The notes under the pieces: model-generated | Databases searched by the model: none | Told to the model about the DNA's origin: nothing | What the model saw: the letters and a program-made list of their open reading frames with translations, nothing else | Source of the DNA: Gautieria morchelliformis | Lineage: Eukaryota; Basidiomycota; Agaricomycetes; Gomphales; Gomphaceae | Assembly (NCBI GenBank): GCA_015179125.1 | Contig: WHVA01000250.1 | Coordinates: 62,001-126,000 of the forward strand | Direction of reading: 5' to 3' | DNA: 64,000 nt | Translations under genes and position numbers: made by a program | Part shown: positions 13,991 through 64,000 of the stretch, piece after piece | Layout: the number at the start of each line of letters is the position of its first letter | Position numbering within the stretch: position 1 is the stretch's first letter

Positions 13991-13995
13991 GGTAT

Positions 13996-14352
13996 TTTAG
14001 AATAAGTGAGACATACGAGTAAGAACGTGAGAGAATATATATGTATCGTTTGTCCTGTGAGCTCACTGGGGCAAACAGATGGTTACATACATGGAATGTA
14101 AAGACTTATATATGTTCTTGGAACAAAAGGAAGTAGAACAATAAGAAAAGCAAGAACAAAGGGCTTGACAATGGTACATGCAAGCCTTTGATTACATAAG
14201 CGGAACGAACGCGTAATCAGCTTGTTAGACTATTCCAACACTCCTCTGCAAGCTGTGAAGTGTTCTATGGCAAGGATAATTTTGGAGCGAGCAAGGCATT
14301 GCTTCTCCAAGAAGGTTCTGACACCTTTGGAGTTGGGTCCAGCGGTTGGCAT
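13996..14352 (-). mobile_element. 3' half of a miniature LTR element (family A)
   Basis: On the minus strand, 14240 down to 13996 is an LTR starting TGTTGGAATAGTCTAAC. It matches 63081-63324 on the plus strand closely. A purine tract (CAGAGGAG) directly precedes it, and 14241-14347 is the end of the internal region. The outer flank GGTAT (13991-13995) is the reverse complement of ATACC at 63076-63080, as expected if both LTRs came from one insertion. The element is broken: it is split by a copia insertion at 14353 and its other half is 49 kb away. It carries no coding region here. Confidence 0.7.
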
Positions 14353-14505
14353 TGTTAGTAATCGGGACGATGACACCACCGAGGCAGAGCCGGCACGCAT
14401 TTAGCCGGAGGTTCGAGATCGCTCTCGACCCGGGTTGCTGGTGCACCGGCATCGCATCGGCACAGCAGCTCGAAGAGATTGGTAATATAGGAACATCATA
14501 ATTAG

Positions 14506-14513
14506 TATATAAG
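14506..14513 (+). promoter_or_regulatory. TATA box in copia B LTR
   Basis: TATATAAG lies about 70 bp before the LTR end, a normal place for the start signal of retrotransposon transcription. The same motif is in the sister LTR at 63491-63711. Confidence 0.5.
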
Positions 14514-14651
14514 GACAGATGATCTTGTACAGATCAGAGAACAACAGATTATTATATCTCCTTCGTTCCACAGGTTATGGGCCCCGCGCATAACTAAACT
14601 ACTACAAATCTAACTACGCTCTATACTCCAATAACTCAATACCGATCGACG

Positions 14652-15641
14652 ATGTCGAGTAGCAACAACACGTACAAGATCGACCCCTTGAACGGGGATA
14701 ATTACGCGGCGTGGCGCCGGCGGCTCGAGTGGATACTCGATGACTTAGATCTGTGGGACGTGGCTATCGGCAGGGAGACAGAACTGAGACCGGCAGATGC
14801 CGACAACGTCACTGCGACCGAGCAGCAGGAGATCGACGATTGGAGAAGGAAGGACAAGAAAGCTAGAAAAGAGATTTGCCTCAGAGTTGCCGATGAACAA
14901 CTAGTTTACATCAATCAGACAATGTCTGCATTTGCTGTATGGACTGGTTTACAAGCGATATTCGAATCTAAGGGAGCAGTGGGAATTGTAAATCTCCGAA
15001 GAGATTTCTTCCGGACGCTTGCCGAGGACGGCGCGAACATGGAGGAGCACGTATGCAAGCTCCGCGGCATTCAACAGGAACTGAATGCGCGGGGGCATTA
15101 CATCAGTGACACCGAGTTCTCGAACACGTTGCTGACGTCATTACCAGATTCTTGGTCAGCGTTTATTACGGCAGTAAACGCCAGTGGAGCCGGGACAACA
15201 GCTGATATATTAATAGCTCGGGTCCTCGATGAGGATCGAGCACGGAAAGCTGGATCGGCACGGCAGACGGCGCTTAAGGCGCAACAACATCACAGGACCA
15301 GGAAAGACGACTCAGGAGCAACAAAGGGAAAATGCCGAAATTGCGGCAAGAAGGGTCATTACGTGAAGGACTGTTGGGCGAAAGGTGGCGGCAAGGAGGG
15401 CCAAGCACCGAAATGGTTCAAATCAGGGAACAAAGAAACAGTCAAACAAGCAGAAGAAAAGGATTTCGCATTTGTATCTAAGGAGGTAGCATACAGTGCT
15501 ATATCTGCATCCGACTGGCTAGCCGATTCAGTGGCAACAACACACATAGCTAGAAGCCGAAATGATTTCGCTAGCTATGCCGAGGAACCATCAGAAATCG
15601 AAGGAATTTCACCCGGTGCGGTACTACATACACAAGGCTGA
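14652..15641 (+). CDS. gag: Gag with UBN2-type capsid and zinc knuckle (copia B)
   Basis: This is copia Gag with the beginning of protease, 329 residues. The start ATG is followed by the typical copia opening, DPLNGDNYAAWRRRLEW. A UBN2/Retrotran_gag helical domain covers about residues 50-200, with EHVCKLRGIQQELNARG in its middle. A CCHC knuckle, CRNCGKKGHYVKDC, lies at about 227-240. Near residue 290, DWLADSVATTHI is the region of the protease active site. Coding similarity to copia protease continues past this frame to about 15725 (ELRDVKYAPDG). Gag forms the particle in which the RNA is copied. The piece is a fossil, lacking the rest of the element. Confidence 0.85.
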   Translation: MSSSNNTYKIDPLNGDNYAAWRRRLEWILDDLDLWDVAIGRETELRPADADNVTATEQQEIDDWRRKDKKARKEICLRVADEQLVYINQTMSAFAVWTGLQAIFESKGAVGIVNLRRDFFRTLAEDGANMEEHVCKLRGIQQELNARGHYISDTEFSNTLLTSLPDSWSAFITAVNASGAGTTADILIARVLDEDRARKAGSARQTALKAQQHHRTRKDDSGATKGKCRNCGKKGHYVKDCWAKGGGKEGQAPKWFKSGNKETVKQAEEKDFAFVSKEVAYSAISASDWLADSVATTHIARSRNDFASYAEEPSEIEGISPGAVLHTQG

Positions 15642-15729
15642 GGCACTATATACATGGAATTCAAGATCGGTGCCAAGACGAACACGATCGAACTACGTGA
15701 CGTCAAGTATGCACCGGATGGTCTACTTT

Positions 15730-18700
15730 GCGGCACCAAAGGCCACATCGTCAAGGACTGCCCGAAGAACAAGTCTACCAGCGGTAGTGGTTCTAAAGGT
15801 CGGGCAGCGAAGACCCCCAAGGAGGGGACTTCGGCCTCCATTACGGAGGTGAAAAAATAGGTAGCAACCTCGGAACCACACGATCCGAGGATTGCGGTAA
15901 CCTCACCCGTGTGCTCAGACTCAGTGCCGCTTCTCATTCATTGTCCAAAGATTCCCTTAATGTAGATCTAACCTCGCCTTCGCTTCCCAACGTCGCTTTT
16001 GTTGCATTAGTTGACTGCGGGTCCTCAGACTGTTTTATTGAATCCAGATTTGTCCAGAAGTACTCTATGCCTGCTTATCCTGTCTCTCCTATACCCTTGA
16101 AACTATTTGATGGTAGTACTAACACTACCATTACCCAAGCTCTAGACCTCTGTATCTGCTTTCCGACTGGCGAACAACAATGGGTTACCTTCTACGTAAC
16201 CTCGCTCTACTCGAGTTGCTCGGTGGTACTTGGCCACAACTGGCTCACCCGCTACAATCCGTCAATTGACTGGGTATTGGGCAGTATTACTTTCAAGACC
16301 ATCGACCTAACTACGACTCCAGCGACCACGGCGACGTCAGCCCGCTCAGCTTCGGCTACGACTTTGACCTTGCCTATGGCATCTTCGCCCCCGCCTTCGA
16401 CCTCGCCTCAGAACTCGCCTCCAAAGTTGCAAGCACCACTCGTTTCCCTAATCAATGCACCCGCTTTCATGCATGCGTCTAGATTGGAAGGGTCCGAAGT
16501 GTTTCAGCTCAATCTGGCCTCACCTGAGCTCCTCGCCCAAGGAGCAACATCGGGAGAAAGCTCTTCCGAGCTTTCTGAGAACGTTAAAAAACATGTTCCC
16601 GAAGTATATCACGAATTTGCAGATGTGTTCAGCAAAGCACGTGCTGACACTCTAGCCCCCCACCGACTGCACGATATCAAGATCAACCTTGAAGAAGGGA
16701 CCTCGCCACCTATCGGTCCCATCTACTCTCTCTCAGCTTCCGAACTCAAAGCACTTCGCGAGTTCATCAACGAGCACTTGAACATTGGTTTCATCCGACC
16801 TTCGCACTCGCCTCATGGTGCACTGGTATTGTTTGTCCACAAAAAGGATGGCTCACTTTGGTTGTGTGTTGACTTCCAAGGTTTAAACAAGATCTCGAAA
16901 AAAGATCGGTACCCATTACCATTGATTGCTGACTTACTTGATGCTCCAAAGAATGCTCGCATCTATACGAAGATTGACCTTCATCACGCTTACCACCTCG
17001 TAAGGGTGGCTGAGGGTGACGAATGGAAAACCGCCTTCAGGACTTGCTATGGGTCTTTTGAATGGTTGGTTATGCCATTTGGTCTCACTAATGGCCCTGC
17101 TGCTTTCCAGAGATTCATGAACGAGATTTTCGCCGACCTTTTGGACGTTTGTGTGGTGGTATACTTGGATGACATTCTAATCTACTCCAGTGACCCCTCC
17201 AAACATGTTGAACATGTCAAGGAAGTCTTGCGACGACTGCAACTCAACAACCTCTTCGCCAAAGAAGACAAATGCGAGTTTCATCGCGACTCGGTTGAAT
17301 TCCTCGGCTACATACTCTCTCCCGAGGGCCTCACTATGGTGGACAACAAGGTAAAGATCATCCAAGACTGGCCTGAACCTCGCAAAGTTCGCAACATCCA
17401 GTCTTTCCTCGGGTTCTCCAACTTCTACCGACGTTTCATTCACAACTACTCTGACATCACCATTCCTCTCACCCGACTCACCCGCAAGGGTACCCCCTGG
17501 AACTTTTCCGAGGATTGTCGATAGGCTTTCAACCTGTTGAAGAGGGCGTTCACTACCGCTCCTATCCTTACCCACTGGATTCCTGACCTTCCACTAATCG
17601 TAGAGACTGATGCTTCAGATTATGCCTTAGCGGCAATCTTATCACTGCGAACCTCAGAAGGCGAACTTCACCCCGTCGCCTTTCACTCCCGCACATTCAC
17701 CTCTACGGAGCTCAACTATGATGTTCATGACAAGGAGCTCCTAGCAATTTTTGAAGCGTTTCAATGCTGGCGACACTACCTCGAGGGCTCTGGCGACACT
17801 GTCGACGTTATCACCGATCACAAGAACCTCGAATACTTTTCAACAACAAAGATTTTGACCCGTCGACAAGCTCGGTGGTCAGAATACCTTTCCCAATTCA
17901 ACCTCACCATTCGTTTCCAACCTGGTCGCCTCGGAACGAAGCCTGACTCTCTCACTAGACGATGGGACGTCTACCTTGAAGAGGGGAATAGCGACTATGC
18001 CACCATAAACCCACAGAACCTACAGCCAGTGTTTACTCAACACCAGCTGGCATTGTCCCTTAGAGCTACTAACCTCGCTCCCGTCGTACTCCGAGCCGCT
18101 TTGATGCTTGATACCGAGCAGATCCGAGCTGACATCCTAGCGAACCTCCCCTCGGACCCCATAGCCAAGTCGCACCTCGGCTTGGTTAATGACCCGAGGT
18201 GGACCAAAGACCACGAGGGTTTTCTCAAGCTTGACAACCAAACCTATGTTCCAGTGGCCCAAGACCTTCGACTTCGCATCCTGCAATACAAGCACGATCA
18301 CATTCTCTCAGGACACTTTGGGGTCAACAAGACCTTGGAGCTGATCTGACGAGACTACACTTGGCCAGGGATTAGATCCTTTGTCAAGGAGTATTGCAAG
18401 ACGTGTACCACTTGTATGCGAAGCAAGCCGCAACGTCACAAGCCCTATGGTCTCCTCAAACAACTTCCCGTTCCCGAGAAGCCTTGGAATTCCATCTCTA
18501 TGGATTTTATTGAGCAGCTTCCCCCTTCATCCGAGTTCACCTCCATGCTAGTGATTGTTGACCGCTTCACTAAGCAGGTTATCTTCATTCCAACCACCAA
18601 CAAGATAACCTCGCAAGAGCTCGCTCACCTCTTCGTCCTTCATGTCTTTTCCAAGCATGGAGTCCCCTCGCACGTCACCTCGGACAGGGTTCCAAGTTCG

Positions 18701-19581
18701 TCCCGCACTTCTGGCGTTCTCTAGGGAAAGCCTTGGACATGCGGTTGCATTATACCTTGGGATATCATCCCGAGGGTGACGGTCAAACCGAGCGTGCTAA
18801 CCAGACCTTGTAACAGTACCTCAGGATATACTGCAACTACCAACAGTCCAATTGGGCTTCGCTCCTTCCCCTAGCCGAGTTCGCTTACAACAATGCGCCT
18901 AGCGCAACCACCGGCATATCCCCATTCTTTGCTAATAAGGGTTACCACCTGAACCTCGCAGTCCACCCCAAGCGCGACCTTGCCTCGGCACGAGCTCGAG
19001 ACTTCGTGGTTGACCTGGACGAGCTACACCAAGAACTTCGCCGCACCATCCTCGAAGCTCAGAAGACCTACCAAGCCTCGGCCGATGTTCGTTGCAAACC
19101 CGCTCCTGATTTCCAAGTAGGATCCCTCGCCTTTGTAAAGGCACAGTACTTCCGAACAACTTGGCCTACCAAGAAGCTCGCCGAGAAGTTTTTGGGTCCT
19201 TTTGAGATCATTTCCCGAGCGGGTACTCACTCCTTCACCCTTCGACTTCCAGAACACATGCATTCAGTCCATCCAGTATTCCACGTATCCATGCTCAAAC
19301 CAGCCTCGCCCAACACCATCCCGAACTGAGTTCAGCCTCCTCCACCCCCAGTCGTCATCGACGGCGAGCCCGAGTTCGAGGTCTCCGAAATCCTCGACTC
19401 GAAGATCAATAATAGACGAAAGAGCTGCAAGCTGCTCTATCTTGTTAGGTGGACTGGATACGAAGGTACCGACGAAGAAACCTCATGGATCCTCGCTTCC
19501 GAGCTTGATAATGCCTCGGAGCTGGTCACTGACTTCCATGAATCTTACCCGGGCAAGCTGGGCCCTTTGACTGCTCTATGA
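15730..19581 (+). pseudogene. pol: Gag end and Pol of gypsy B
   Basis: This is a remnant of the gypsy polyprotein with a few breaks. The order is: zinc knuckle end CGTKGHIVKDCPK (about 15727-15770), retropepsin motif LVDCGSSDCFIE (about 16010), reverse transcriptase from about 16700 with LCVDFQGLNKIS and YLDDILIYSSD (about 17160-17190), RNase H from about 17590 with VETDASDYALAAIL, integrase from about 18300 with a zinc-binding CXXC and core SMDFIEQLP, and a chromodomain at about 19370-19560 with YLVRWTGYEGTDEETSW. It encodes the enzymes for copying and integrating the element. The chromodomain is better preserved than that of element 1. Confidence 0.88.
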
Positions 19582-19699
19582 TCGTTTTCTTGTTTAACCC
19601 CCATGACCCAATAGTTAGATAACAAAATCCCCTCGCAATCGAACAACACAAAAAAAATCAATAAAATCCAAGAAATATTCCATTATTCCATTTACTAGT

Positions 19700-20842
19700 T
19701 TACTCCAACATCCTCATATCCTCTCCCTTGCTCTCCTCGCTACCCTCGCCTGACTCCTCCTCATTACTACTGCTACTTCGCTCCACCAGACCCCCATGTC
19801 CCCCATAATCCGCCAAGTCTCTCGCCCCCTGCATCCGCTTCAAGTAATTCCGCCTCCTCCTTATCCTCATGAACTCCACATCCGCCCTGTTCATCCTATC
19901 ATTCGCCGCCCTAAACTCCCCCAACAACTCACACACCCTTTCCCCAACCTCACCAACCTTCTGTCCCACATCCCTCACCACCACTATCAACTCCCTCATC
20001 TCCGCACTTCGCTCCGACCTTTTCGTCTTCTTGTCCTTCTTTGCCCTCCGACCTTCCACCTCGGTTTCCTCTACCTTGGTTTCCTTCCCCTCACTCTGCC
20101 TCGCTCCCTCTGACCCCTTACCCTTCTCCTCGCTCAACCTCGCTTCCATCCGCTCCACCCTCGTCTCAAGGTTCCGCTCGACCCAGTCACTTGAGTCGTC
20201 GTCCTCTGCAACCTCGTCCCGAACCTTGGCCTCTTTCCTCAGCCTCAGTCCGTCCTCGGTGTCCTCGCTCCTTGCCCGCTTCTTGCCCACGGCACTCGCC
20301 TGACCCTTTCCTGGGGTCGCCTTGCTGCAACAACCATGGGCTATACTACAGCCCAAAGAGCGTGTCCTGCACCACATGCAGGCACCCTGGTCGGCGAGGC
20401 CAAAGTCGAGGCTAACGGCCTGAAGGCACATATAGTCGCGCACCTCGCCTCGGCCTTGGTCGTGAGTTGCCACTCACAAGGTCCTCCGTCGGTGAGCTTG
20501 TACCCGTATAGGGACAAGTCGGTGGGGTGGTACGAGAACAACATGCGTTTATACTATACAAGTCAGCAGCGTCCATGACCAGAAAATGATGGTACTCACC
20601 TTCTTGCCATTGGGCCCTTCCTGCCACGGCTTCCGCATATCTATGGCCCCCGCATCCTCGATGGGCCACGGGACCACGTTGGGTCGAACCTTGGGCATAA
20701 CCTCGCCCGAGGGACCGTCCTCCTCAGACAGCAAGGTCTGGTCGAACACGTTGTTCGTGCTGTTTTCGTCGATAGCAGAGTTAAAGAGAGCTTGGGGGTG
20801 CACCATATTCGTTGGCACTTGGGTTTGCTGCCTCCTACCCAC
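19700..20842 (-). pseudogene. antisense coiled-coil/cysteine accessory gene in gypsy B
   Basis: This gene lies inside gypsy B, between chromodomain and 3' LTR, but on the opposite strand. The start is at 20842. A first exon of 81 codons ends at 20600, followed by a 46-nt candidate intron (GTGAGT..TATAG, 20599-20554). Downstream are a Cys-rich patch (ACMWCRTRSLGC), a basic segment (GKKRARSED), a long acidic/basic stretch and a heptad-like helix (VGQKVGEVGERVCELLGEF), ending ...RMLE near 19700. In many Agaricomycetes similar cysteine-patch plus coiled-coil genes accompany gypsy elements; that is from general knowledge, not a search. The function is unknown. This copy is probably broken. A relative is at 25831-28291. 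Confidence 0.5.
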
Positions 20843-20940
20843 CCTTTTATCTAACCTCGGCTATGATTAAGCTTCGCCTTTCCGGTGATGTAACATCGGG
20901 CTGGGATCTAGATTCGAGGATAGGCGAACCTTGTTCATAT

Positions 20941-20977
20941 TACGGCCTTGAGGGTCTCGGCCATAAGGAGGGGATAC
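20941..20977 (+). promoter_or_regulatory. hairpin and purine tract before the gypsy B 3' LTR
   Basis: TACGGCC and GGCCATA form a near-perfect 7-bp stem with a short loop. A purine tract, AAGGAGGGGA, follows and lies 3 nt before the LTR start TGTAAG. The tract is the expected primer for plus-strand DNA synthesis. The same hairpin plus tract stands before LTR D (25702-25740, minus strand). Confidence 0.5.
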
Positions 20978-21516
20978 TGTAAGAACCCAGCCTTTGGCCG
21001 GTTACTTACTGGTATAACTTTCTTCCGAGCCCGAGCCTTGTGATACTCATGCCCGAGTACATATGATTCTTATCCTGCGCCCGAGCCTGAGCTAGAGCTA
21101 GAGCTCATATCTGACCTTGATCCCATGCCCGTATCCCCTTAGTTACTGATTCCGCTCCATCACGCATCATTCATATATTACCTCGCCCTGATCTCCACTA
21201 ATATGTTCGCCCCTGAATCGTACCCTCGCCCTGTATATAAACCCCCCTGTATGCATTCCTACTCCTCAGTCTGAAAATCAACTATCGTATAACTTCGATC
21301 CTTAGTTAGTTTCTAAGCTTCGCCTCTTAAGCCAAACCTCGCCTCTTATTCGTTTGCCTCCGAAGTTGGGACTCGTGCGTAGGGTCGGTGCAGCACATAA
21401 GCTGAAGCCTAGTCCCTCTCCGACTTCCCCATCCAAACCTCGCCCCATAACCTCGGACCGTACCTCGGGTTTCGCTCCCAACCTCAATCAACCTTACGAC
21501 GGATCGTATCTTAACA
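20978..21516 (+). repeat. 3' LTR of gypsy B
   Basis: It runs 539 bp from TGTAAGAACCCAGCC to CGTATCTTAACA. A TATA-like TGTATATAAAC lies at 21232-21242. It contains GAGCCCGAGCC-type short repeats near its start. A second copy of this LTR starts at 50119, there without internal sequence. Confidence 0.85.
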
Positions 21517-22101
21517 GGTGCAGCATCTTTTTCACTGTTTGATAGCACCCTATCGCTTTGAAGATACGTCCCTCGACCTTCTTGTAACTGGCATTGGCAG
21601 GAAGCTTCACACGCTCAACAAACCCTTCGGCTTCAGTGCCGTCCGGAACACGCAAGATAATTACTTGGCCATGAAATGAGCATCAAATTATAAATGAAAA
21701 ATATGATGGCATACCAGGTTCATCAATATCCTTTACCTGTTTGGGAACTGCCACCTCTACTAACTCTTCAGACTCTGAGTCTCGATTAGGGTCGTTGGGC
21801 TCGGCTTTGGACTCGGATGCACTTTGAGCCGGCTGGGTCTCTTCCTCATATGAAGACCCTGACTCAGATTCGAAGTCTTCAAAAGTTACTTTTTTTGCCA
21901 CCTGACGTTTCAGTCGAAAAGTGCTAGTAGTTTGAACAGATTCTAAATAACTGGTGAGCTTGAAATAGCATCTTTATATATAAACGGACCTTTGCCCTGA
22001 ATTCCCGCTATGTCAGGTGACAGTTCCTCTGGAGGTTCTTTGACCTTTTTCATTGCTCGTGTTGACTTGGTGGGCTGTCTTTTATTTTTGTTATTTCCCA
22101 T
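21517..22101 (-). pseudogene. hypothetical acidic/basic gene cut by the gypsy B LTR
   Basis: The minus strand shows a three-exon model: exon 1 from ATG at 22101 to 21990, exon 2 21942-21715, exon 3 from 21663 until the LTR at 21516. The reading phases agree across both introns (46 and 51 nt, GTCCGT..TTTAG and GTATGC..CCAAG). The protein starts with a Lys/Arg-rich segment, then an acidic Ser/Glu stretch (SESGSSYEEET), then a folded-looking part (VIILRVPDGTEAEGFVERVK). I do not recognise the family. It resembles lineage-specific Agaricomycete proteins often found near repeats. It has lost its 3' end at the LTR junction. The region 22102-22440 has no supported gene. Confidence 0.4.
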
Positions 22102-22440
22102 TGTTGGTAAGGCAAGTTGAACTTGGTCGGGTTATGCCGATTCATAATAGGCGGCTTGCCGCGCTGCACCATCGACAACACCACGCACCACAGACACTTC
22201 AGCCTCTCTTGGTTCGGCACTCGTCTTCCATATGAACTTGCCCCGGGCTTCGAAGCATCCGCTGACCCTGTTCTTCAATCGCGCCTTTTCGCTTAGCTCC
22301 ACAGGCTCGCCGTCAAGTACCAGCAGCGCCCTGTCAACTCCCCCATAACCCCAGTGGCCAACTTCCGTGAGTATCCCAGCACATATTCCTCATACCAGGG
22401 TGTCTGACCACTCGACTCCCGCAGAGCGCCACGGCCCAGG

Positions 22441-22770
22441 CGCATTCGTGTCCCAGGGCACGCGTACCTGCACCCGCACCTGCCGCCGCCCATTCCCCCA
22501 CCACCCCGTCCTCCTGCACCAGCTTGCACACCCCAGCACCTCCGCGCCCCTCACCCCGCCGCGTACGCGTGCACCCCCCGCGTCCTTCGCGTCATTACCC
22601 AACCCGTCCCTACACCTGCGCCCGTACCTGCACCCGCACCCGCCGCCGCCCGCTTCTCCACCACCCCATCCTCCTACACCAGCTCACCCACCTCTGCCCC
22701 CGCGTCCTTCGCGTCGCCGCCCAACCCGTCCCTGCACCCGCACCCGCACCCGCACCTGCACCCGTACCTG
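22441..22770. repeat. GC-rich minisatellite, left part
   Basis: This is an array of CACCCGCACCTGC-type short units alternating with longer blocks of about 100-115 bp that include CACCACCCCGTCCTCCT and CCAACCCGTCCCTGCACC. It continues at 24303 after the solo LTR that interrupts it. Long proline/histidine-rich open frames here are a result of the repeat, not genes. Confidence 0.8.
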
Positions 22771-24302
22771 TGTAGGGGAACAGCTGTTCAACCAGCCAAG
22801 GAAGGCTGCACAACCAGCCCTAGTCTTTTCCTTTTTGTCTTGACAATATGTAAAAACACAATTGAAGAATTAACAGTATCTTTATGCTGTTAATACAACT
22901 GGGGAAAGGCTTTTCAAACATTCCTCTAGTTATCTCATATTTTTCCTTATTTTTCCAAAGTCTCCATGGCTCAAACTACCATTTTTCTGTCATTACAGAG
23001 TTGTGGATCCTCCAGCACCCACAACTCTGTTCCGTGCGCTCTATTTCAAACTCCGCCCGGCACCTCGGCGGTGGCCGCATTTTCAGACTTATGGTCACCC
23101 AAGCACCCACAAGTCCGGCAGGATGGCTCTCTCAGTATTTCCAGCTGAGTCCCAAACAGTTGCTATATGCAGCCATAGCAACTGTGCAGCCTGTTTGGCT
23201 TCACCAAACAATGGGGATCATGGTCAGTAATGACAACTAGGCTGTACCAGGCTATGCTCAGCTGTGCTAAGCAGTGCTCTTAGTAATTATGGCTACAGAG
23301 CCCTAATTGGCTCAGAACTGCTTACTCAGCTTCTGAGTGCCAAATACATGGTTATCTGGAGATACAGCCTCAATGACTCAACCAATCCAGGCACAACTTG
23401 GAGAGTCAGGAGTACATGACTCAGCCAAGCTGTGCCATGACACATGACCCTTTTCAGTGAGTCATTCCTGACAAATCAAGCTCTGATTGGTAGGAAGCAT
23501 GGTAGAGTCCCCTGGAAACAGCCAGGTTCTTCCAACCCTTTCTTCTATCTTCCACAAGCTTCTTCCCCCATTCCATTAATAGATAGAAGGTTCTACCTGC
23601 TTACTAAGCCCTTGTACATTACAATATAAAGGAGGCCCTTTGCCTGCCATTTGAGCAATCAATCTACCCATCTTCTATCCTACACAGCTTGTGTGACTTG
23701 CACATCTTACCTAAGTTCCTAACCCGAACTAGAATACTACTCTTGCTTAGAGTAACTATTCTTAGTTAAGTAGTTGCTTTACTGCTTAGCCACTTAGCCT
23801 AACACGCTGGGTGCAACTCTACAGAGTGAGGTTGGCAATCGATTTTCTTGTCAATTAGCACTCCAATACCTGAGACGAGCTGTTCAGTTGATTTTCCTGT
23901 TCAGTGACTTTCACAAGTCAAGTCAAGTTGTGCGCGAAAGCCACTTCACATTACTCTCTCATTATTGCAGTGCATTGACGTTGGTCGACCCAATCCACTT
24001 ACAAACTCTCCTGCGGAGCCTATTCCCTCTTTATTAAAAGGAATACTCTTGGACCCCGATAGTGTCCTTGAACCTACACACTCTTTTAGTTTATTGTTCA
24101 GTGCAGCTAAGAAACGCATTGCCTTCCAGCTGTAATAACTTGGACTAGTTATTACACAGATTGCAACCAAGGTACAAATATTAAATTATTTCCGGAGTTG
24201 TGCTGCTGCATTGAACTGGTATTCTACTAGTCATGTAAACGACAAGTTCTGATAGACAGAGGTGTTAGCAATAACACCAAAGTCTTGAAGGGTTCCAAAA
24301 CA
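22771..24302 (+). mobile_element. solo LTR of family C (copy C1)
   Basis: This 1532-bp unit starts TGTAGGGGAACAGCTG and ends GGGTTCCAAAACA. It is flanked by the direct repeat ACCTG (22766-22770 and 24303-24307) and sits inside the minisatellite. There is no internal region, so it is a solo LTR. A TATA-like element (CAATATAAAGG) lies near 23620. Related copies are at 26675-28056, 28292-30934 (minus) and about 31005-31838. Confidence 0.85.
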
Positions 24303-24690
24303 ACCTGCACCCGCACCCGCACCCGCCGCCGCCCGCTTCCCCAGCACCCCGTCCTCCTACACCAGCTCGCCCACCTCCGCCCCCCTGTCCTTCACATTGC
24401 CACCCAACCCGTCCCTGCACCCGCACCCGCCGCCACCCGCTTCCCCACCACCCTGTCCTCCTACACCAGCTCGCCCACCTCTGCCCCCACATCCTTCGCG
24501 TTGCCACCCAACCCGTCCCTGCACCCGCACCCGCACCCACACCTGCACCCATACCTGCACCCGCACTCGCACCCGCCGCCGCCCGCTCCCCCACCACCCC
24601 GTCCTCCTACACCAGCTCGCCCACCCCAGCACCTCCGCGCCCCTCACCCCACCGCATACGCGTGCGCCCCCGCAGTTTCCGAGCTCAAGA
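24303..24690. repeat. GC-rich minisatellite, right part
   Basis: This continues the array at 22441-22770. About three long units can be seen here, each holding GTCCTCCTACACCAGCTCGC and CCAACCCGTCCCTGCACC, separated by CACCCG/CACCTG repeats. Confidence 0.8.
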
Positions 24691-24691
24691 A

Positions 24692-24966
24692 CATGTCAGG
24701 ATCGGCGAAGTTGCCTTATGGTGCATTGGCACTCAGTGCCGAAGGGATCAAAGATGCTATTACGAACTTTGATGACGCATATGTTCCATGTTATATGATC
24801 CCTCAGATTTTTGGGGCTTATGCTACACAGGAGGAAATCCGACATCGAGAATGAACGCCTACCGTCAGATCTCACTGATCCAACGTCAGAAGAAGCTAAG
24901 CCCTTCCTCTCCAATCCTACGACACCCTCTTCTGGAGATTCTCCTGTAGTGGGTTCTCACCATTAG
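24692..24966 (+). pseudogene. small hypothetical gene fragment beside the minisatellite
   Basis: An ATG at 24692 opens a frame of 53 residues (MSGSAKLPYGALALSAEG...). After it, coding-like sequence goes on in another frame to a stop at 24966 (PSDLTDPTSEEAKPFLS). The change of frame near 24845 suggests decay, or a missed short intron. I do not recognise the family. 24967-25238 holds AT-rich sequence with nothing I can name. Confidence 0.3.
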
Positions 24967-25238
24967 TACAAAGTAGCAAACAAAATTAAAACCTGCATTG
25001 AACTACATACAGTAAGCTAAGCTTGCCCTCAGCACCCAAAATGCAAAATAAAAAATGCTTGTTTTATTTGGATTTTTTAGTTCTATGCCCTAGCTATGGT
25101 CCACATAGCTTCAGATATGAAATTTCAAGCGAATCGGAGCGATATCAAGCAAGATATCGTTGTTCGAAGTTTGCGTGCTAAAACAGAAGCAAATCCGACG
25201 CGCGCCTTAGGTACTGCAAACGGGTGTAAGGCCATTAA

Positions 25239-25701
25239 TGTTAAGAACATAAGTCATACTTAAGAATCAACCCAAGGGACGAGCTGAGGTTTGGGAATGG
25301 AGGGCTTGGCTTCAACTTCGTAGGTTGCACCCACTACAGTGTTCTGCCCTAATTTTGGGAAACAGATTCAGGAAGTGATCTGGCTTCAAGCTGAGGTTCG
25401 GAATTGAGATCAGACAGAGAAGTGGAAGATACAAGGATCTAAGTCAATATCAGAACTGAGGATTTAGTGTGCATGATGGGGGTTTATATACTAATTGTAA
25501 GGAATGGAAAGAGGGCATCAATGGCTGTATCCAGCAGGAAGGATGGTAGACGGACGATCATCAGAAATGGAACAGGATTATCTAGGAAAGGAAGTTAGGG
25601 TGAATGATGAACCGATGGGAACCCGAGTTAAGCCGAGAAGGGTTCCTGAGCGAGAGCTGAGGCCGAGGCCTCGGTTCCAGACTTGGGAACGGGTCTTAAC
25701 A
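25239..25701 (-). repeat. LTR of a third gypsy-like family (LTR D)
   Basis: On the minus strand it starts TGTTAAGACCCGTTCCC at 25701 and ends TATGTTCTTAACA at 25239, 463 bp. A purine tract and the hairpin TATGGCC..GGCCATA precede it, so it is the 3' LTR of an element that runs to the right. A TATA-like AGTATATAAAC lies within it near 25485. The accessory gene at 25831 has the same position and antisense direction as the one in gypsy B. Pol and the 5' LTR are not found. Confidence 0.75.
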
Positions 25702-25830
25702 GTACCTCCCTCTTATGGCCAAACCCATGGCCATAAGTGAGATTCCAGAGATTGCCAGGATGAATGGATTATATAAGCTTTGTTTCGCATCTCTTTTCTT
25801 GCTTCCTCCCATCACCATCAGTAGTTCCCC

Positions 25831-26671
25831 ATGTCAGACGCTCAGGATCCTCAGGAACCAACAGTCAAAAAGCTTGATGCGGAACTCGAGTGTGAGGAGC
25901 GAGGGGCTGAGGAGAAGAGGAACCGGTTGAGGGAAAAACATTGCCTTGCCCAGGAGTGTAAGGAAGCGGCAGAGAAGAAGAAGTTGGAGGAGGAATGGAG
26001 AGCGAAGGAATCCAAGGAGGAGCGAGAGTGGCAATGCAAAGCGGAAGCCAAGGAAGAGGAGTGCAAGGCTTGGGAAGCCAAAGGAGAGGCTCGGGAGGCC
26101 AAGAAGAAGGCTCGGGAGGCTAAGGTAGCCACTTGTGCACATTTAAGAAGATGCCTTGATGATCTGCTTAAGGAGTTTCGGGAACAGCAAGCCTCGGTAA
26201 ACCAGGACATCCGGATTCCATCGCCTGAGCCAATCATTATGGACTCGGCTACTGCAAGGGCTTGGATTTTAATGTCCAAGCAGGCCATTGAGCGGATCCA
26301 GGTGAAAATGAAGCCAAGGGCAATGGGGGTGAAGAAATCGAAAGTGATGGAGGAGGAGTCAGAAGAGGAAGAAGTGAGTGTTCAGGTTTTATTACCCGGT
26401 TTGGTTTTGACTTGTCACTTTTTAGGATGATCTGTGTGACAACTGCTTCAGGCGGAAGGTTCCCTGCATTCATGGGATGAAGACAGCTTGTCGGGACTGC
26501 AATCTGCAGAAAGTGCACTGCAGTTTCACTGACGGAAAGTGCAAGCAGAGAGTCGGGGCCAGAGCCAAGGGGCCGGCAGCAAAAATGCCTAGGCCAATGC
26601 CAGTGAAGGCGACGGGAGTCAAACCATCGGTTGAAATCAAGGAAGGTCCTTCAGGATCGGGGTCAGGATAG
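25831..26671 (+). CDS. cysteine-cluster coiled-coil accessory gene (antisense to LTR D element)
   Basis: This two-exon gene has exon 1 at 25831-26373, an intron at 26374-26425 (52 nt, GTGAGT..TTTTTAG) and exon 2 from 26426. Exon 1 encodes a long Lys/Glu/Arg/Ala helix of coiled-coil type (residues about 15-110), a linker and an acidic stretch (EEESEEEE). Exon 2 begins with two Cys triplets in C-x2-C-x6-C spacing, CDNCFRRKVPC and CRDCNLQKVHC, like a small zinc-binding patch, followed by a basic Pro/Lys tail. The nearest stop is at 26669-26671, just before an LTR of family C; coding-like sequence is seen again beyond it at 28057. Its role is unknown. It may bind DNA, judging from the patch. Confidence 0.6.
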
Positions 26672-27342: not shown

Positions 27343-27396
27343 TTCCATTAATAGATAGAAGGTCCTACCGCTTAGTTAAGCGCCTGTACATTACGA

Positions 27397-27404
27397 TATA
27401 AAAG
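27397..27404 (+). promoter_or_regulatory. TATA box in LTR C2
   Basis: TATAAAAG stands downstream of the TGACTCA cluster. The same block is conserved in C1, C3 and C4, so it is likely the LTR promoter. Confidence 0.5.
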
Positions 27405-52050: not shown

Positions 52051-53108
52051 CATGTTCCTTGCCACGTGAGGCCAGAGAGATCATCTCACGGAATCGTGGG
52101 TGTTCGAGGCCTGAAATAGGCTATGGCATGATTGATGAATGGTATCTGTTGAAGATAGACTGAAAATATGCTCACTTGATCTGTTGCAATCAACCATTCT
52201 ATTGCCACTCGCTTAAAAAGGGCATCAGAGTAGGGTGGGAGCTTCTCCTTGGCTTCTTTGGGTGCGGCCTTGTCAAAGTGATCGGTAAGCAGCTTATTGC
52301 TCGCAGCGGCCTTGGCATCCTTGCGAGCTTGGGGCAATTTGCTAATAAATCCCATTTTCTTACACCACTCATTGTATTTGCCCTGAATAAAATAGATTAG
52401 GAAGCTCTTACAATAACAGATGGGCATGCTGTGACCTGATGGAATGCTTGCATGTGCCTTCGGAGCGTGGATACATCGTGGGTGTATACGGCTTTGTGTC
52501 TATCCCCTTTGCTAATATATGGATTAGTAGGTATCTTGATTTGAATGAGATGTTGCTACGTACACACATAGCTTGCACTCAATTAGCCTTTTGCCCTCTT
52601 CAACACGTGCATTAGCGAAGAAGAATTGAATGTCAAGCGTGCGGTCCTTGATTTTATTGCTACTCGTTTCAGGTACACTATCTATATCATCTAGATCCAC
52701 AAGCCATCCATCTGGATGCATGGCGTCATGGTCTAGGCTGAGCTGCGTGTCAGCAGGTACCACTGTTGGAAGAATGCAACCTCGAATTATATAATACGGT
52801 GCAGCGATAAATGAAGCAAACTCACTAGCGGCAGCTGCATCTTTTTCTGTGTTATCCTTCTGTTGACCGGAAACCCTCTTAGCCTTTGAGGGTTCTGATG
52901 CACTCTTCAGTCTCTTGTCCCTATGATTGTCAGTTTTATCTTCTCTAGACTTTGCTGATACTTTTCCCTTCTGCGAGGCAACGTTTAAAGGATCACGTAG
53001 CGCTGCACTCGGCTTGACCACACGCCTGGTGCTTGTGACCGTTGGCACTGTAGGTAGCTCCATCTCCGAGTTGCTATCAGATGTATCCACACGCTGTGCC
53101 CGGGGCAT
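52051..53108 (-). pseudogene. hAT transposase, N-terminal part with BED finger
   Basis: The gene starts on the minus strand at 53108 (MPRAQRVDTSDSNSEMEL) with a low-complexity basic N-terminus. A BED-type zinc finger follows, with C-x2-C in RLIECKLC and H-x4-H in LRRHMQAFH, separated by an intron of GT..TTAG type near 52560-52505. Further exons encode YNEWCKKMGFISKLPQAR, FKRVAIEWLIATDQ and, after another intron, GLEHPRFREMISLASRGK, a typical hAT order. BED fingers bind the element's ends. The sequence ends at 52051, at an inversion breakpoint. The continuing part is at 50611-51233 on the plus strand. Confidence 0.8.
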
Positions 53109-53191
53109 AGTAGTATATGAACGAGAGAGAAAATTTAACTACATTGTTGAGGTAAAATAATATAATTACATGCCTATGTGAGGGTAGAACT

Positions 53192-53392
53192 AACCTTTTT
53201 TGGTCACCGAAGATCCTTGGGCTCAGGCGCCCATAAGCCGTGGCTTCCGGGCTCAGCTCGGGCTTGTCAAAACCCAAGCCAGGCCAGGAAGTCCGCTGCG
53301 CCAACGGCTTGGGCCTGGCCTGGCTCGGGCTTTTGGTGGCTCGGCTCGGGCTAAGCCGCGGCCTGGGCCGGGCCGTGCCCATCACTATTTGA
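53192..53392 (-). repeat. hAT terminal and subterminal repeats
   Basis: Read from 53392 leftward, the end is TAGTGATGGGCACGGCCCGG, which fits the YARNG start of hAT terminal inverted repeats. It is followed by many AGCC/GGCT-rich units that probably bind the transposase. The flank TTTGAGCATTCACTGTG (53393 on) is the start of repeat R, as at 32254, so the hAT end abuts a repeat R copy. Confidence 0.65.
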
Positions 53393-54903
53393 GCATTCAC
53401 TGTGTTCACTAATACATATACATGATATTAACGCCTAAAATCCAATCTTGACATCACGCTTTAGACTTCCAGCCCATGCTTGATGCTCTAGGTATGGAGA
53501 TGTGGTTGGTTCAGCCAGCTTTTCTTCAATTTTCATGCTCCACTGAGGTCACGTGATTGATTACATAAGTGGCCAAATGCTTCCATTGTCCTTGCCTAAA
53601 AATTTTCTGAGCATGCATGTCCTTGCATCATACAAGTGATTTCCTGCACTTTTGTAAAATTCAAGTTTTTTGTCTATATACAGCTCAATTTTTATTCAAA
53701 TAATATTCTGTTTCCTGGGACTCATTTCTAGAGGTTATTTGCATGGATTGTAGGAGGCAAAGTGGTGAAAAAGTGACCATGTGAACATCTATTGAGCTCA
53801 AAATATTGGGGTAAAGTAGATTGTGTAAGAGTGTCCTCTATCTTAGACCGATCTATCACGCATGGTGACGCCTCGATTTGGGAAGTTAAGCAGGGGGACG
53901 TCACCGCCGTAAAAAAAGCTCAGACGCGCCGAGGCACACTTCACCCGGCCAAAACATTAGGTGTGGAGCCCTGGGATTCGAACGAGCTACGTCAGACGTT
54001 GCCATCTTAGGTCCGATGTTGCCCAGATGAGGTTTTACCACTCATCTAGCAGGGAGCATCCAACAGCTCAACAGATATAGTCTATATATGTGTTCTCGCT
54101 CCTACGTGCAAACCTGGCAGCGACCTCACTCTAGCGTCACTTGAGTCTTCCGCAGTCCTGTTCAAGGCTCCTGTCAGCAGCCACGGGGCTGTCACAATAA
54201 TTTGTAAATAGAAAAAAAAATCTGCGTTTGCATCTTAGATAAATCTCAGACGCATTCTCGTCGTGGCTACTAGCTAGTAATTTGGTGCTACATCAACAAC
54301 TGCACCGACCCCAATGCACTGGTGCTACCTACAGTCCTAGCTTCTCCTTTACTCGATCGGCCTATCACTCCTATCACTCCGAGTCATCCTTGCTTCGCGC
54401 AGCGTCCGTAACCATCCCACGACGTCCTCGACGCGACGCTGCCACGTCGGCTTCCTGGTGCCGCTCCCTCCTCCAGCGCAACCCGAACAACGCCATTGTC
54501 GTCCGAACCACCATGCGCCATGCTCCATGCACCCGCCGCCGCCCGTCTAGTTACGGTAAAACACCTCCCTTGCCACCCCTTTCTTCAGAAGCATCTGATC
54601 ACTCGCGTTGACGCAGCATTTCCCTCCACTTACCAAGTATCCATCTCGCGCCCGGCGGTCTCTCCAGCGTGTGATGGGGAGATCAAGCGTACATTATTGT
54701 TGGAGCGTGCTTTACGGACGAGCGCGCCCTCCAGATCCTAGTCGTTGGGAGCTTGGCGTTTACCGTATACCGTGTTGACAAGCGTCCGCCCGACAACATT
54801 ACGATGAACTCATTGGTAACGTTTTGCCTGGGTGAGTGGGCCTTGGCGCGTCTGAGCCTTTTTTTCGCTGGTGATGATGCGCGATAGATCGGTCTAGTAC
54901 CAC
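53393..54903 (+). repeat. repeat family R, copy 3, with both terminal inverted repeats
   Basis: 53393-54815 matches copy 1 closely. The part 53838-54903 is bounded by inverted repeats of about 100 bp: the right one reads inward GTGGTACTAGACCGATC, then GGCTCAGACGCGCCAAGG, and the left one shares AGACCGATCTATC and CTCAGACGCGCCGAGG but has an extra 35 bp. This copy has a shorter interior than copies 1 and 2. It looks like a non-autonomous DNA transposon of about 1.07 kb. Short frames in it (for example at 54282) recur in all copies but show no domain. Confidence 0.65.
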
Positions 54904-56422: not shown

Positions 56423-58219
56423 ATGACGCTACACCATTCGTTTTCCAGCGCGGGGGAGAGAGCCGGCCTTGCTGTGAGTAATTCTTGCGCCCTTGTGTCT
56501 GCCGAACTTCCATTATGCATCTCAGGCTATTGCAACGGCTGGTTTATCATCAGCGTTGTGTACTTTTACTCTCCTTGCCTACATCCTTGTGAGTACAAGA
56601 CCCACACCTAGTAGTACGCGTTATGAATTCTTCACATTATTAGTGGAATGCATTCCTGACACGCGAGCAAAACACACCTCTACATCGGGGCATCCGCTCC
56701 TTTACATGTTCTTCACTAGGGTGCTATTTCATCTCTTTGCTTTTTTGTGACTTTTTACAAGGTATATTTGTTCTCCTTTTGGTGTTTCAGCAGAGCTCAT
56801 GTGTCCCGAGTATAGGCGCATCCTTCGCCCTCAACTATAGATGGGCTGCTTTGGGCGGCATGAAGGAGGGCCGCGTCTGTACAATTCAGGGCGCAGTATC
56901 AGAAGTGGGCGATTTAGGAGCAGCAATATGGTCCATCGCTATCGGGATCCACACATTCTTGTATGAATTTCTGAGCTCATGTTTGTTATTTGTGGCTCGC
57001 TGACGTTACATGCAGTCTTTTATTTATCGTCAAAAAACCTCATCATCTTATGGCACCCATTATCTTAGGGCTGGGTTGGACAATGCTCATTGTCCTTCCC
57101 ATCCTTGGGCCTACGGTAATTCAGACCTCGCATCGAGGTTTATTCTATAGCCTCAGTGGAGCATGGTGTTGGATAGGGACGGGCTACAATGCTGAACGAT
57201 TAATATACCTTTATGTTGGTTTATATTTAGTTGTTTTGGATGCGGGGGTATTCTGTAATGAAGTTTGACTGACCATGCCCCCCTTTTCCTAGATCTGGGT
57301 TTTCACAGCTATTGGGTCTTCTTTCATAATATATAGTGAGTCCTTGTATTTGCGACATTCATGTGGGATTCTGACACATGAAAGCACTCATTTACTTGCG
57401 TTTTTCAAACTTCATCACCGTTGGAGAGAACGGAAACCTTACTTTCAGCTTCCGGCGTCGACACAACAGAGCGATTTCGCAGACTCTATATCTTTCTCAA
57501 GAAGGTACACACACATCACAGCGCGCATCAACAAAGCCACCCGGTCGTTTTGGCTGGGCGAAAGATGTGTATGACGGTACTGCCACAACTGGGACAGCCA
57601 GCGCTAGTGACCAGGCAGTGAATAGCTCTCCTGTCAGCAAGGATTTGCGGCAGGTTGCGCGAAGGTTGATGTGGTATCCTATTTGTGAGTTGGTTGGCCG
57701 TGCCATGGCTATATATGGTTTATCATCATCATATTTGGGGCACAATCAGTGTATACATTGGTCGTTTCACCCGTGTCTGTGTGCCGAATGGGAGTAATAG
57801 CAGGGTGGCAGCCCCCTTTCGGACTGCTAGTCTTGGCCGGAATCTGCTTCGGCGGGAGTGGTACGTTCTTCTTGACACGAGGATACGGATGCCTTCCTGA
57901 TCTGTATTGTGCAGGCGTTAGTAATGTGATATTGTTCATCACAACGCGACATAGTTTCATCAAGCGGGTCGCGAAAGATGGCGGAACTCGAATACTTGTT
58001 ACTACCCATCGCGGGACCGTGCGTGACGACTCAGCGCCCTGCCCCGAATTGGACGAAATCGCGACTAATATTTCCGGCCACTCTCTGGCAACGCCCATAT
58101 CTCCCTGTTTCCCGAGCTTTGAAGGCGTGAACATCCATGTGGAAGGTATAAAAGAGAAGACTAAAGAACAAAATTGCGAGACTGACATTGTGGACGGGAG
58201 CGTGGGGTTAGCGAGGTAG
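56423..58219 (+). CDS. cAMP-receptor-like G-protein-coupled receptor
   Basis: This is a seven-span receptor of the Dicty_CAR/Git3-type family, expected in the plasma membrane to pass nutrient or other outside signals to a G protein. The model has eight exons: 56423-56473, 56526-56588, 56644-56960, 57016-57247, 57293-57335, 57385-57684, 57750-57860 and 57915-58219, with all phases consistent and 473 residues. TM1 is AIATAGLSSALCTFTLLAYI (18-38), TM2 about 66-86, and TM3 follows VCTIQGAVSEVGDLGAAIWS (117-149). TM4 is IILGLGWTMLIVLPILGP (159-176) with the conserved SGAWCWI in loop 2. TM5 is about 207-242, then a long loop 3, TM6 RRLMWYPILYTLVVSPVSV and TM7 ending NVILFITTRHSFI. The tail is about 95 residues. 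The loop between TM2 and TM3 is longer than usual, so a hidden intron there is possible. Confidence 0.85.
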
Positions 58220-60876: not shown

Positions 60877-61371
60877 CCCAGAGACGATATATGTTTTTCG
60901 CTGTTCAACGATTTCCCTGACGACCCATACCCCGAATTTCAGTTTCGATTGTCATTCAAGACGTACTGTAACCAAAAAATGTTGCACTTCTGTCAATGTA
61001 ACGTAATGGGCAGCCTCCAGTGAGATCTGAGGCATTAGATTCTCCAGCAAATTACCATATAACTAAATCTCAAGTGTTGGAGTAGTAGCATTTTTGTACT
61101 GCATGCAATTACACTGACATGCAACTTGGAGCCTGTCACGTCTTTCTAGGAATTTGACAGTAGGTGGATATAGTCAAGCAGCATGACAGGTAATACATTA
61201 ATTACGACGGTCCTCACCAAAACACAAGCGAAACAGATGGTCTATAGAACACTATTACGGCAAGGTGTTCCAATACCATAATGAAGGAGGAGGTCCTTGC
61301 ACTGTCCGGGACTTTTAGCGTGATCACAGCACATCCTGGATAAGGACATCGAACAAATCACTCACCCAGTA
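60877..61371. other. intergenic, convergent 3' ends
   Basis: This lies between the ends of two convergent genes. It is AT-rich with no open frame of note. Confidence 0.5.
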
Positions 61372-62791
61372 TCAGGGACCCTCCTGCATATCTGGCAGAG
61401 GCGCATCAACGATGACTTTTGTATCGAGCGCCCAATTCGACTCCACGGAGGAATCTTGTCTTGCACCGAATTTGAAGTAAGGAAACCAAACTTGCAATAC
61501 ATCCTGATCCCAGTTTCTAAGTATTTCCATATCCATGAGGTAGCCCAAGTGAACGTACGCGCTGTAATCCAAGTAACAAGAATGCGAGAAGAGGAACTTG
61601 TGGGGCGGGAGGGAATAGGTCATTGATGCGGCATATGTTTGGGAATCTTAGTTTGCGCAGCTTACAAAGAGACTCTCCAACACTGATTGCATCTCCAACG
61701 ATCAGAGTCGCATGTGAGTTGGGGTCACTAGTCATCAAGGCGATATCCACAGCGACGATGCTTCAAAAAATACCACAGTACAGTTAGCCTTGTTTTGAGA
61801 ACTATCCGAGGAACGTACATAGTAAACAAGAGTCGAAAGAGACAGAAAATAGAAAGGCGTGTCAGCACAGAAACCGACATTACTCCACCCATATCCGCTC
61901 GTCGAAAGATGCGGCGATAGCGACAAAACCTGACCAATAAAAGGACTAGAGACATGTTGATGACATTCACGGAATATGATAGATGAAAAGAGGGAGCAAC
62001 TGACCATCCCAAATGGACATGAGGATGACCATAGCAAGCTGTAAGTAAGATACCCCTTGGAGCAGGCCGTTGTACTGTGCCGGGTTGACGTATATGAGCT
62101 CACACTAAAACAGAAGAGAACAGTAAGCTAAAATGTGCAGTATACAGATGGTGGGTGTACCCACAACAGGCACGATTCCTATCAAATAAGGAGTAACTAG
62201 AAGCTATTAATTCTATTTCAAACCAACTTCAGTACAATAGTCAACTGTGAACTCACAGCGAATGTCCGCAGCTTCGCTGTTCGTGTGTTTTCGTTATGGA
62301 ATGCTGTCCTCATTTGAAACCACAGCTGGATCAGGTATTAGCGGGATACCGTCACTACCGATGAAGCGCACATGTAAGACGAGGTTAAAGGTAGCTGTTA
62401 AGCCGCTGGAAGCCCATATTACCATCAGTAGTCTGCGGTATGCGCAGATGACTATGCAACTATATCGATGCTCACATCAACCTCATAGAATCGCCTATAG
62501 TGTTTATTACCAGGGCCACACCCAACCTATATTGGTTTTCAGTTAATGCATAAAACACCACATCACTTTCTCCGAATCGTATTAATATCGGCGGGTTGAG
62601 AAAAAGTACTTGAGTACGCACTTAAACACCATTACAGTGGTATATAAGAGGTATGTACCCATGAAATTTACAAACAAAGGATGGCGATGGACTTGATCAG
62701 CAAGAATGACGGTGATAATCAAGGCAGACAGAGATACGAAGCCGAACAGTCGCAACGCAAAAACGGCTGCACCCAGAGGTTGAAGCAGCAT
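61372..62791 (-). CDS. orphan seven-span receptor-like protein
   Basis: This multi-exon gene on the minus strand starts at 62791 and stops at 61372. Pieces in order: TM1 VFALRLFGFVSLSALIITVI, then HRHPLFVNFMGTYLLYTT; a span CIVICAYRRLLMVIW with SSGLTATFNLVLH; LWFQMRTAFHNENTRTAK after a GTGCGC..TCCAG intron; LLVTPYLIGIVPVV; QLAMVIL; then LLLVRFCRYRRIFRRADMGG and VLTRLSIFCLFRLLFTM; finally PLLAFLLLGLQ and a tail NWDQDVLQVWFPYFKF. This matches the layout of an orphan 7TM family common in mushrooms (from general knowledge). Exon joins are only partly resolved and the last one does not fit cleanly by eye, so a break near 61550 is possible. Confidence 0.65.
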
Positions 62792-63080
62792 GGTAGCTCG
62801 CAAATGACTCGGAGGCCTGCCACATTATATATATGTACAGGGCCATCCCACGGTCCCAGGCTTCGCCTGTGCGAATGATGTACTTGTGACAGATGGTCAT
62901 CAAGACAACAGGCTTCGAAAGAAAGATGTTGACATGCAGGGGGCGTAATTGAGAGAACCAGCGCTTATGCGTGCTCACGTGGGTCGACTCCTATTGCGAT
63001 GCTTCAGCTCGCTTATTCCGTCAGTCGTGTGTTAACGTTGCCTTTAGCTGTGCGTTTTTTGTAGTATACTTCAGTATACC
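62792..63080. other. upstream region of the 7TM gene, host side of element A
   Basis: This is the probable promoter of the minus-strand 7TM gene. ATACC at 63076-63080 is the target duplication of element A and is the reverse complement of 13991-13995. The sequence to its left would once have adjoined the gene scrap at 13674-13990. Confidence 0.5.
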
Positions 63081-63490
63081 TGTTGGAATAGTCTAACACG
63101 CTGATTACGCGTTTGTTCCGCTTATGTAATCACAGGCTTGCGTGTACCATTGTCAAGCCCTTTGTTCTTGCTTTTCTTATTGTTCTACTTCCTTTTGTTC
63201 CGAGAACATATATAAGTTTACATTCCATGTATGTAACCATCCGTTTGCCCCAACGAGCTCACAGGACAAACGATACATATATATTCTCTCGCGTTCTTAC
63301 TCGTATGTCTCACTTATTCTAACACAAACGGATCTCCCATTGCTGGATCACCGCAACTGTCACCAGACACAAATTAGTACCCCCTCACGGCCTGTCTTGG
63401 ACACACCAGAATAGCTTGCAAACTCACAGTCACTGCTGAGGCACACCGGAATCACGCCCCCCCCCCCTTCATTTCTTATCTGATCATGCC
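63081..63490 (+). mobile_element. 5' half of the miniature LTR element (family A)
   Basis: The LTR is 63081-63324 (TGTTGGAATAGTCTAAC to TTATTCTAACA) with a TATA-like ACATATATAAG near 63207. It is followed by 166 bp of non-coding internal sequence, including a C-rich run at 63457-63468, up to ATGCC at 63486-63490. Copia sequence starts next. The complementary half is at 13996-14352. Taken together the element is only about 0.76 kb and has no coding region, like a TRIM. It is broken by the copia insertion. Confidence 0.7.
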
Positions 63491-64000
63491 TGTGGAACGA
63501 AGGAGATATAATAATCTGTTGTTCTCCGATCTGTACAAGATCATCTGTCCTTATATACTAATTATGATGTTCCTATATTACCAATCTCTTCGAGCTGCTG
63601 TGCCGATGCGATGCCGGTGCACCAGCAACCCGGGGTCGAGAGCGATCTCGAACCTCCGGCTAAATGCGTGCCGGCTCTGCCTCGGCGGTGTCATCGTCCC
63701 GATTACTAACACTCCCCCTCAGCGAGAAGTCCCTTCGGCAAAATCCTAATTTCCCTAATAGATACCTGTGTTGATGTAAATCCAATCCCTTTGTAAATAT
63801 GTCCGCTATGTTCTCCTTTGTCGGTACGTACGTAAGTGATGCCTCGTGAGAGGCCACTTTCTCACGGATGAAATGATATGCGACATTGATGTGTTTGGTA
63901 CGCGCATGATACGTTGCGTCATGCGATAGTGTAATGGCGCCTAGATTGTCTGATCGAAGTGACGTGGGGTGGGTTTGATCGATTCCAAGTTCCTCAATGA
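63491..64000 (-). mobile_element. 3' end of a copia B element, running off the window
   Basis: On the minus strand, 63711-63491 is an LTR of the copia B family (TGTTAGTAATCGG to CTTCGTTCCACA), preceded by the purine tract GAGGGGGAG. From 64000 to about 63740 the minus strand codes for the end of copia RNase H. The flank ATGCC (63486-63490) pairs with GGCAT at 14348-14352. The rest lies beyond the right edge. Confidence 0.85.
63740..64000 (-). CDS. pol: RNase H C-terminus (copia B), partial
   Basis: The minus strand reads SDNLGAITLSHDATYHARTK followed by INVAYHFIREKVASHEA and VPTKENIADIFTKGLD, the conserved copia RNase H end. It degrades the RNA strand during copying. The upstream part is outside the window, so its state cannot be judged. 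The frame stays open into the LTR. Confidence 0.85.

Follow-up and report, generated by a model that had tools for sequence, protein, structure and literature searches.

A retrotransposon nest split between two loci points to a large inversion, with a small inversion nearby, in transposable-element-rich DNA

How do the two ends of one retrotransposon, nested in another, come to lie at 14 kb and at 63 kb of the same DNA and in opposite orientation? The question is raised by a stretch of contig WHVA01000250.1 (the ‘window’: 64,000 bases of eukaryotic DNA rich in transposable elements (TEs), with no N), in which a long terminal repeat (LTR) retrotransposon, copia B, and a smaller LTR element, A, each have one end at either locus. 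An inversion, by either of the two mechanisms considered below, is very probably the right answer. As such it would be a real inversion in what is probably a fungal genome, an event of a known kind whose mechanism is shown only in part. The two halves, their target duplications, their polarity and the join at which copia B stops are all directly visible in the DNA.

The two parts of copia B fit together closely. The element starts at 14353 after GGCAT and its 3' end lies at 63491, on the minus strand, beside the reverse complement ATGCC, coordinates that the sequence-only reading had given and that check out. The two LTRs differ in three of 223 aligned columns (220 identical, 98.7%), and the inner side of the 3' LTR (63491-63711) carries the purine tract GAGGGGGAG. 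The left part encodes a gag (PF14223, 8.3e-30) and, below the Pfam cut-off, positions 1-29 only of the 81 of Pol_BBD (E 0.0012), whilst the right part (63712-64000) matches the end of the frame 44834-45910 of a second copia element, copia C, at 41% over 86 amino acids. The copia-type gag, the TG..CA LTR ends and the 5-bp duplication GGCAT place copia B in the Ty1/copia group. Copia C, 5.0 kb long (44456-49455), serves as a yardstick: if copia B has the same length, some 3.1 kb of it would lie unseen past 64000.

The two parts of element A are likewise complementary, being opposite ends of one element, each adjoining its own LTR. The whole element would measure about 0.76 kb, with an interior of 273 bp made up of 161 bases, 107 bases and the 5 bp that copia B duplicated on insertion. 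The longest homopolymer of the window, 11 consecutive C at 63457, lies inside it. Terminal-repeat retrotransposons in miniature (TRIM) and large retrotransposon derivatives (LARD) are present in three of five Boletales genomes, according to the portion of that study available (PMC5689174). Element A resembles those TRIM elements, as described there, in being a short LTR element, and it has a purine tract; it differs in being seen as a single copy, in two halves, with no family established and no primer-binding site recognised.

Matching flanks of 5 bp do occur by chance, about once in 1000, so that copia B inserting independently into each of two A copies could in principle give the pattern. 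At random window positions an inverted 5-mer match has a frequency of 0.00099 (exact) or 0.0030 (with a slack of 1 bp either way), and the product of the two frequencies, about 3e-6 if the matches are independent, bears out the earlier claim that two matches with correct polarity are unlikely to be fortuitous. Moreover, opposite ends of both A and copia B stand at the two places. Among the 45 pairs that can be formed from 10 LTR-end flanks (the ends of copia C left out, and the boundary of A where the sequence-only reading placed it), three match, and these are exactly the three pairs expected of split elements. Coincidence is thus scarcely credible.

The polarity at both loci is that of a single nest, in which A was interrupted by an oppositely oriented copia B, and which was then cut in two and reoriented. 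The LTR divergences differ in the direction that nesting predicts, with 11 of 244 columns differing in A and three of 223 in copia B. The two target duplications, the polarity, the complementary A interiors and the truncation of both copia and gypsy sequence at their meeting point together argue for one nest. An original position of copia B inside A at a single locus, with later separation and reorientation of the halves, as the sequence-only reading had proposed, is well supported by these sequence features. Markers of one ancestral locus, the halves of copia B and of A, stand at both ends of the intervening segment in opposite orientation, as is characteristic of an inversion, and an inversion would split the nest and turn one half round in a single step.

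The visible breakpoint candidate is the point where copia B gives way to a 5'-truncated gypsy element, gypsy B. Similarity to copia C extends to 15719 (24%, E 0.003) and a zinc knuckle lacking its first five positions begins at 15729 (E 0.00082, just below the Pfam cut-off); the sequence right of the join is called gypsy because a reverse transcriptase (RT) follows the zinc knuckle. PF00078, PF17917, the start of Integrase_H2C2 and SH3_Tf2-1 follow in order, which assigns gypsy B to Ty3/gypsy, and the best match among solved structures is Ty3 (7q5b, 7.8e-63). Its integrase core frame matches the integrase frame of another gypsy element, X1, by frame comparison rather than by Pfam. The flank of gypsy B, GGTGC (21517-21521), has no partner among the 10 listed flanks, and no other full-length gypsy-B LTR was found to the left of the 3' LTR among matches of at least 60 bases. 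A copia-gypsy chimera made by template switching is disfavoured, as it would require GGCAT after the gypsy B LTR, where the flank is GGTGC. No relatives of the gypsy B RT, the copia B gag or the start of the copia LTR were confirmed in viral contigs; scans with two of these queries gave 7 and 46 pattern stretches, none of them a relative by tblastn.

Breakage and rejoining at 15720-15728 is the probable mechanism. Copia B would have inserted, in opposite orientation, into an element A already resident in host DNA, and gypsy B would have inserted elsewhere on the same chromosome. Later, copia B and gypsy B may each have suffered a double-strand break, the broken ends then being rejoined crosswise without homology, presumably by end-joining, which would have inverted about 51 kb. 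The product at 14 kb would be the 5' end of copia B with the 3' LTR of A, joined to the 3' part of gypsy B, and the product at 63 kb would be the 3' end of copia B with the 5' LTR of A. At the reciprocal junction the rest of copia B and the 5' part of gypsy B would meet, both on the minus strand. Taking the length of copia C for that of copia B gives an inverted segment of about 51 kb and predicts this junction near 67 kb. The sequence-only reading had put the segment at about 48 kb; on its own model the length becomes about 51 kb, because the unseen rest of copia B belongs to the segment. Of the two junctions expected, the left one is visible in the window. Read in this way, the insertion of copia B predates the inversion.

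The simplest reading of the join is that it is one breakpoint of the inversion, since copia and gypsy are both truncated there, and to this extent the earlier proposal of a breakpoint at about 15725 is likely to be right. It is less secure as to mechanism, as ectopic recombination gives the same duplications. Two complete, oppositely oriented copies of copia B could have recombined, swapping target duplications between the ends in exactly the pattern seen, the copia/gypsy join then dating from a subsequent deletion in which the left copia lost its 3' part and gypsy B its 5' part. Inverted copia B LTRs, 98.7% alike over 223 columns, do exist in the window, although gypsy B cuts the left copy short and the right one leaves the window. 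The Drosophila buzzatii inversion 2z3 has such a signature: in the part of the account available, oppositely oriented copies of the transposon Galileo flank the inverted segment and their duplications are exchanged as reverse complements (PMC2775673). Both 2z3 breakpoints are described there as carrying homologous chimeric Galileo copies, produced by ectopic recombination, whereas here the visible breakpoint links one LTR retrotransposon to a different one, the other breakpoint lying outside the window. In Verticillium dahliae, where six intra-chromosomal inversions were counted, the available text attributes rearrangements in repeat-rich fungal DNA, like that studied here, to erroneous double-strand-break repair, concludes that the repair was homology-driven, and ties the breakpoints to sequence similarity (PMC4971763). 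By comparison, a small inversion in the window (50611-52049, described below) has no such similarity at its ends and the visible breakpoint of the large one joins sequences without a DNA match. Under ectopic recombination, a further event must also have truncated copia and gypsy at the same point. The preference for breakage and rejoining rests on its economy, a single event where recombination takes two, and on the small inversion, which lacks a repeat at its ends; recombination between copia B copies is an unlikely, if precedented, route. No identical fungal case was found in the portions of the literature covered.

Two explanations dispense with an inversion. The nest of A and copia B may have been duplicated in inverted orientation, each copy then losing a different half; within the window the matching flanks and polarity would appear identical, but this scenario takes one duplication plus two or more losses, which must happen to leave opposite halves, and is highly improbable. 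A false join at 15725, or a contig piece assembled in the wrong orientation, would also look the same, as the sequence-only reading had warned. The region is TE-rich, and erroneous inversions are mentioned for a published fungal assembly in the accessible part of one report (PMC4971763). However, nothing is shared at the join to drive a false overlap (at E 0.1 the copia B interior matches nothing from 15726 to 64000) and the sequence contains no N, so that the warning carries little force at 15725 and misassembly is improbable.

Several points weigh against the inversion, or against its proposed mechanism. The far junction lies beyond the window end. The exchange of duplications is compatible with end-joining and with ectopic recombination alike, to judge from the 2z3 account as far as it was available (PMC2775673). 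The similarities that place the join are weak on both sides (E 0.003 and E 0.00082), and the zinc knuckle at 15729 also matches that of copia C (E 0.001), so that alone it cannot tell gypsy from copia. The flanks of A, GGTAT and ATACC, are present where the sequence-only reading had them, but their 5-bp match depends on the LTR boundary: the LTR copy at 13996 ends in TTCTAAA, not TTCTAACA, and ATACC matches ATACC only on the assumption of a 1-bp deletion. With a substitution in its place, the flank becomes TACCA and the match shrinks to 4 bp (TACC). Flanks are in any case not always a safe guide, as X1, apparently unbroken, has the non-matching flanks CACCG and CTGGG. The difference in LTR divergence between A and copia B is not significant (p = 0.057). 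Finally, reading frames cross the empty site of A, but none is recognisable by eye and no rejoined host gene is demonstrable; the only one of these frames that was scanned, 13677-14000, has no Pfam match.

The small inversion, which was absent from the sequence-only reading and is the best new point of the analysis, has both junctions in the window. A solo gypsy-B LTR sits inside a second copy, X2, of the gypsy element X, after AGACC, and it is interrupted: its last 53 bases and the continuation of X2 lie 1.4 kb away in opposite orientation. Turning 50611-52049 round restores the gypsy-B LTR, both copies of AGACC and X2 on the left side, with about 4 bases of the LTR missing and one shared C. 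At the right end, two of the four cut choices, which are equivalent via the one shared C, let the upstream frame continue into a 150-amino-acid frame (50602-51051); with the other two, the short stretch is also open, in a different frame. Probably one reading frame is restored, and the right end is thus supporting rather than decisive. Within 150 bases either side of the breakpoints the longest exact inverted match is 7 bases, against a mean of 8.0 in 197 random pairs. As this is not beyond chance, no inverted repeat drove the small inversion. Breakage-type inversions that cut into an LTR therefore did occur in this region. We take the frame 50602-51051 to be hAT-like, by its resemblance to fungal hAT transposases; no Pfam or solved-structure match was found for the pieces tried. 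In Pfam, the frames flanking the small inversion match no transposase: 50602-51051 and 52527-53138 match nothing, and 52089-52499 has a PAP2 match below the cut-off. Among solved structures there was no match for the two frames tried beside it, and no protein relative was found in either resource.

Table 1. Coordinates of the split nest, the copia/gypsy join and the small inversion (positions in the window)
Feature	Position	Strand	Basis or remark
Element A target duplication, 3' side of A: GGTAT	13991-13995	-	reverse complement of ATACC 63076-63080; needs 1-bp deletion in adjoining LTR end
Element A 3' LTR, 245 bp	13996-14240	-	95.5% over 244 columns to 63081-63322
Element A interior, 3' part, 107 bases	14241-14347	-	purine-rich GCAGAGGAG end adjoins LTR
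Copia B target duplication, 5' side: GGCAT	14348-14352	+	flank comparison
Copia B 5' LTR, 220 bp	14353-14572	+	220/223 columns identical to 63491-63711
Copia B gag and start of Pol beta-barrel domain, then cut	14573-15719	+	Pfam; copia C similarity
Copia/gypsy join, proposed breakpoint	15720-15728		copia C similarity ends 15719; zinc knuckle starts 15729
Gypsy B interior, 5'-truncated, frame broken in places	15729-20977	+	zinc knuckle, RT PF00078 8.2e-36, RNase H PF17917, integrase pieces
Gypsy B 3' LTR, 539 bp	20978-21516	+	followed by flank GGTGC 21517-21521
Gypsy X2 5' LTR and interior start, ends in AGACC (50114-50118)	49800-50118	+	90.7% to 5373-5693
Solo gypsy-B LTR, first part	50119-50610	+	92.5% to 20977-21459; left breakpoint 50610/50611
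Inverted segment, 1.44 kb, wholly inside window	50611-52049		repeat comparison
X2 interior continuation, starts with AGACC (51992-51996)	51866-51996	-	86% to 5689-5812
Solo gypsy-B LTR, last 53 bases	51997-52049	-	87% to 21464-21516
Element A target duplication, 5' side: ATACC	63076-63080	+	flank comparison
Element A 5' LTR, 244 bp	63081-63324	+	LTR alignment
Element A interior, 5' part, 161 bases	63325-63485	+	sequence layout
Copia B target duplication, 3' side: ATGCC	63486-63490	-	flank comparison
Copia B 3' LTR, 221 bp	63491-63711	-	LTR alignment
Copia B pol 3' end, leaves window	63712-64000	-	copia C protein similarity

Matching target duplications allow an inversion to be deduced from one genome, which thus holds its own record of structural change, and the small inversion, with both junctions visible, illustrates well how broken DNA can be rejoined at little loss. 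Beyond that, the locus shows the usual turnover of TE-rich DNA. It is possible, though doubtful, that breakage-type inversions are concentrated here in a hot spot, with two or more in 64 kb of TE-rich DNA and with breaks that fall inside LTR retrotransposons and have no shared homology at the ends. If so, split target duplications could be used as an inversion detector in a single genome, without a second strain.

Immediately to the right of gypsy B are several minus-strand open frames (21500-22131), of which the frame 21686-21973 has no Pfam match. If they are one gene interrupted by gypsy B, its other part would be expected beyond the far inversion junction. Gypsy X1 (5374-13215) looks unbroken, its LTR matches being 98% alike over 216 columns; its non-matching flanks suggest recombination between X copies or another rearrangement. 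Copia C, on the minus strand, has LTR matches that are 94% alike and abuts a further minus-strand element (39259-44463), with an 8-base overlap of two repeat matches. This neighbour has split direct repeats (44064-44463 with 39494-39885, and 39878-39974 with 39259-39355), a layout that we take to be that of Ngaro/DIRS-type elements, together with a tyrosine-recombinase match that is weak and falls short of the cut-off (PF00589, E 0.0022).

No tRNAs were found in the window. The DNA is probably that of a basidiomycete, to judge from the character of its elements, its short introns and a weak cyclic-AMP-receptor match at 56975-57265 (E 0.0044, below the cut-off). A block within 22460-31838 is present in at least four copies, three direct and one inverted, which are roughly 70-91% alike, and C-rich tandem repeats occupy 22602-24576. 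Another repeat occurs in three copies, one of them inverted (32259-34095, 37418-38754 and 53388-54903), with ends that look like terminal inverted repeats. The junction of the F family at 54816 was also weighed as a further inversion, but the inverted end sequence shared there looks more like terminal inverted repeats. Lastly, a large imperfect inverted repeat spans 1616-4463, in which 1616-2412 pairs with 2742-3276 (82%) and 4218-4463 (93%); its right arm is interrupted by about 0.94 kb, and it is possibly a foldback element with an insertion.

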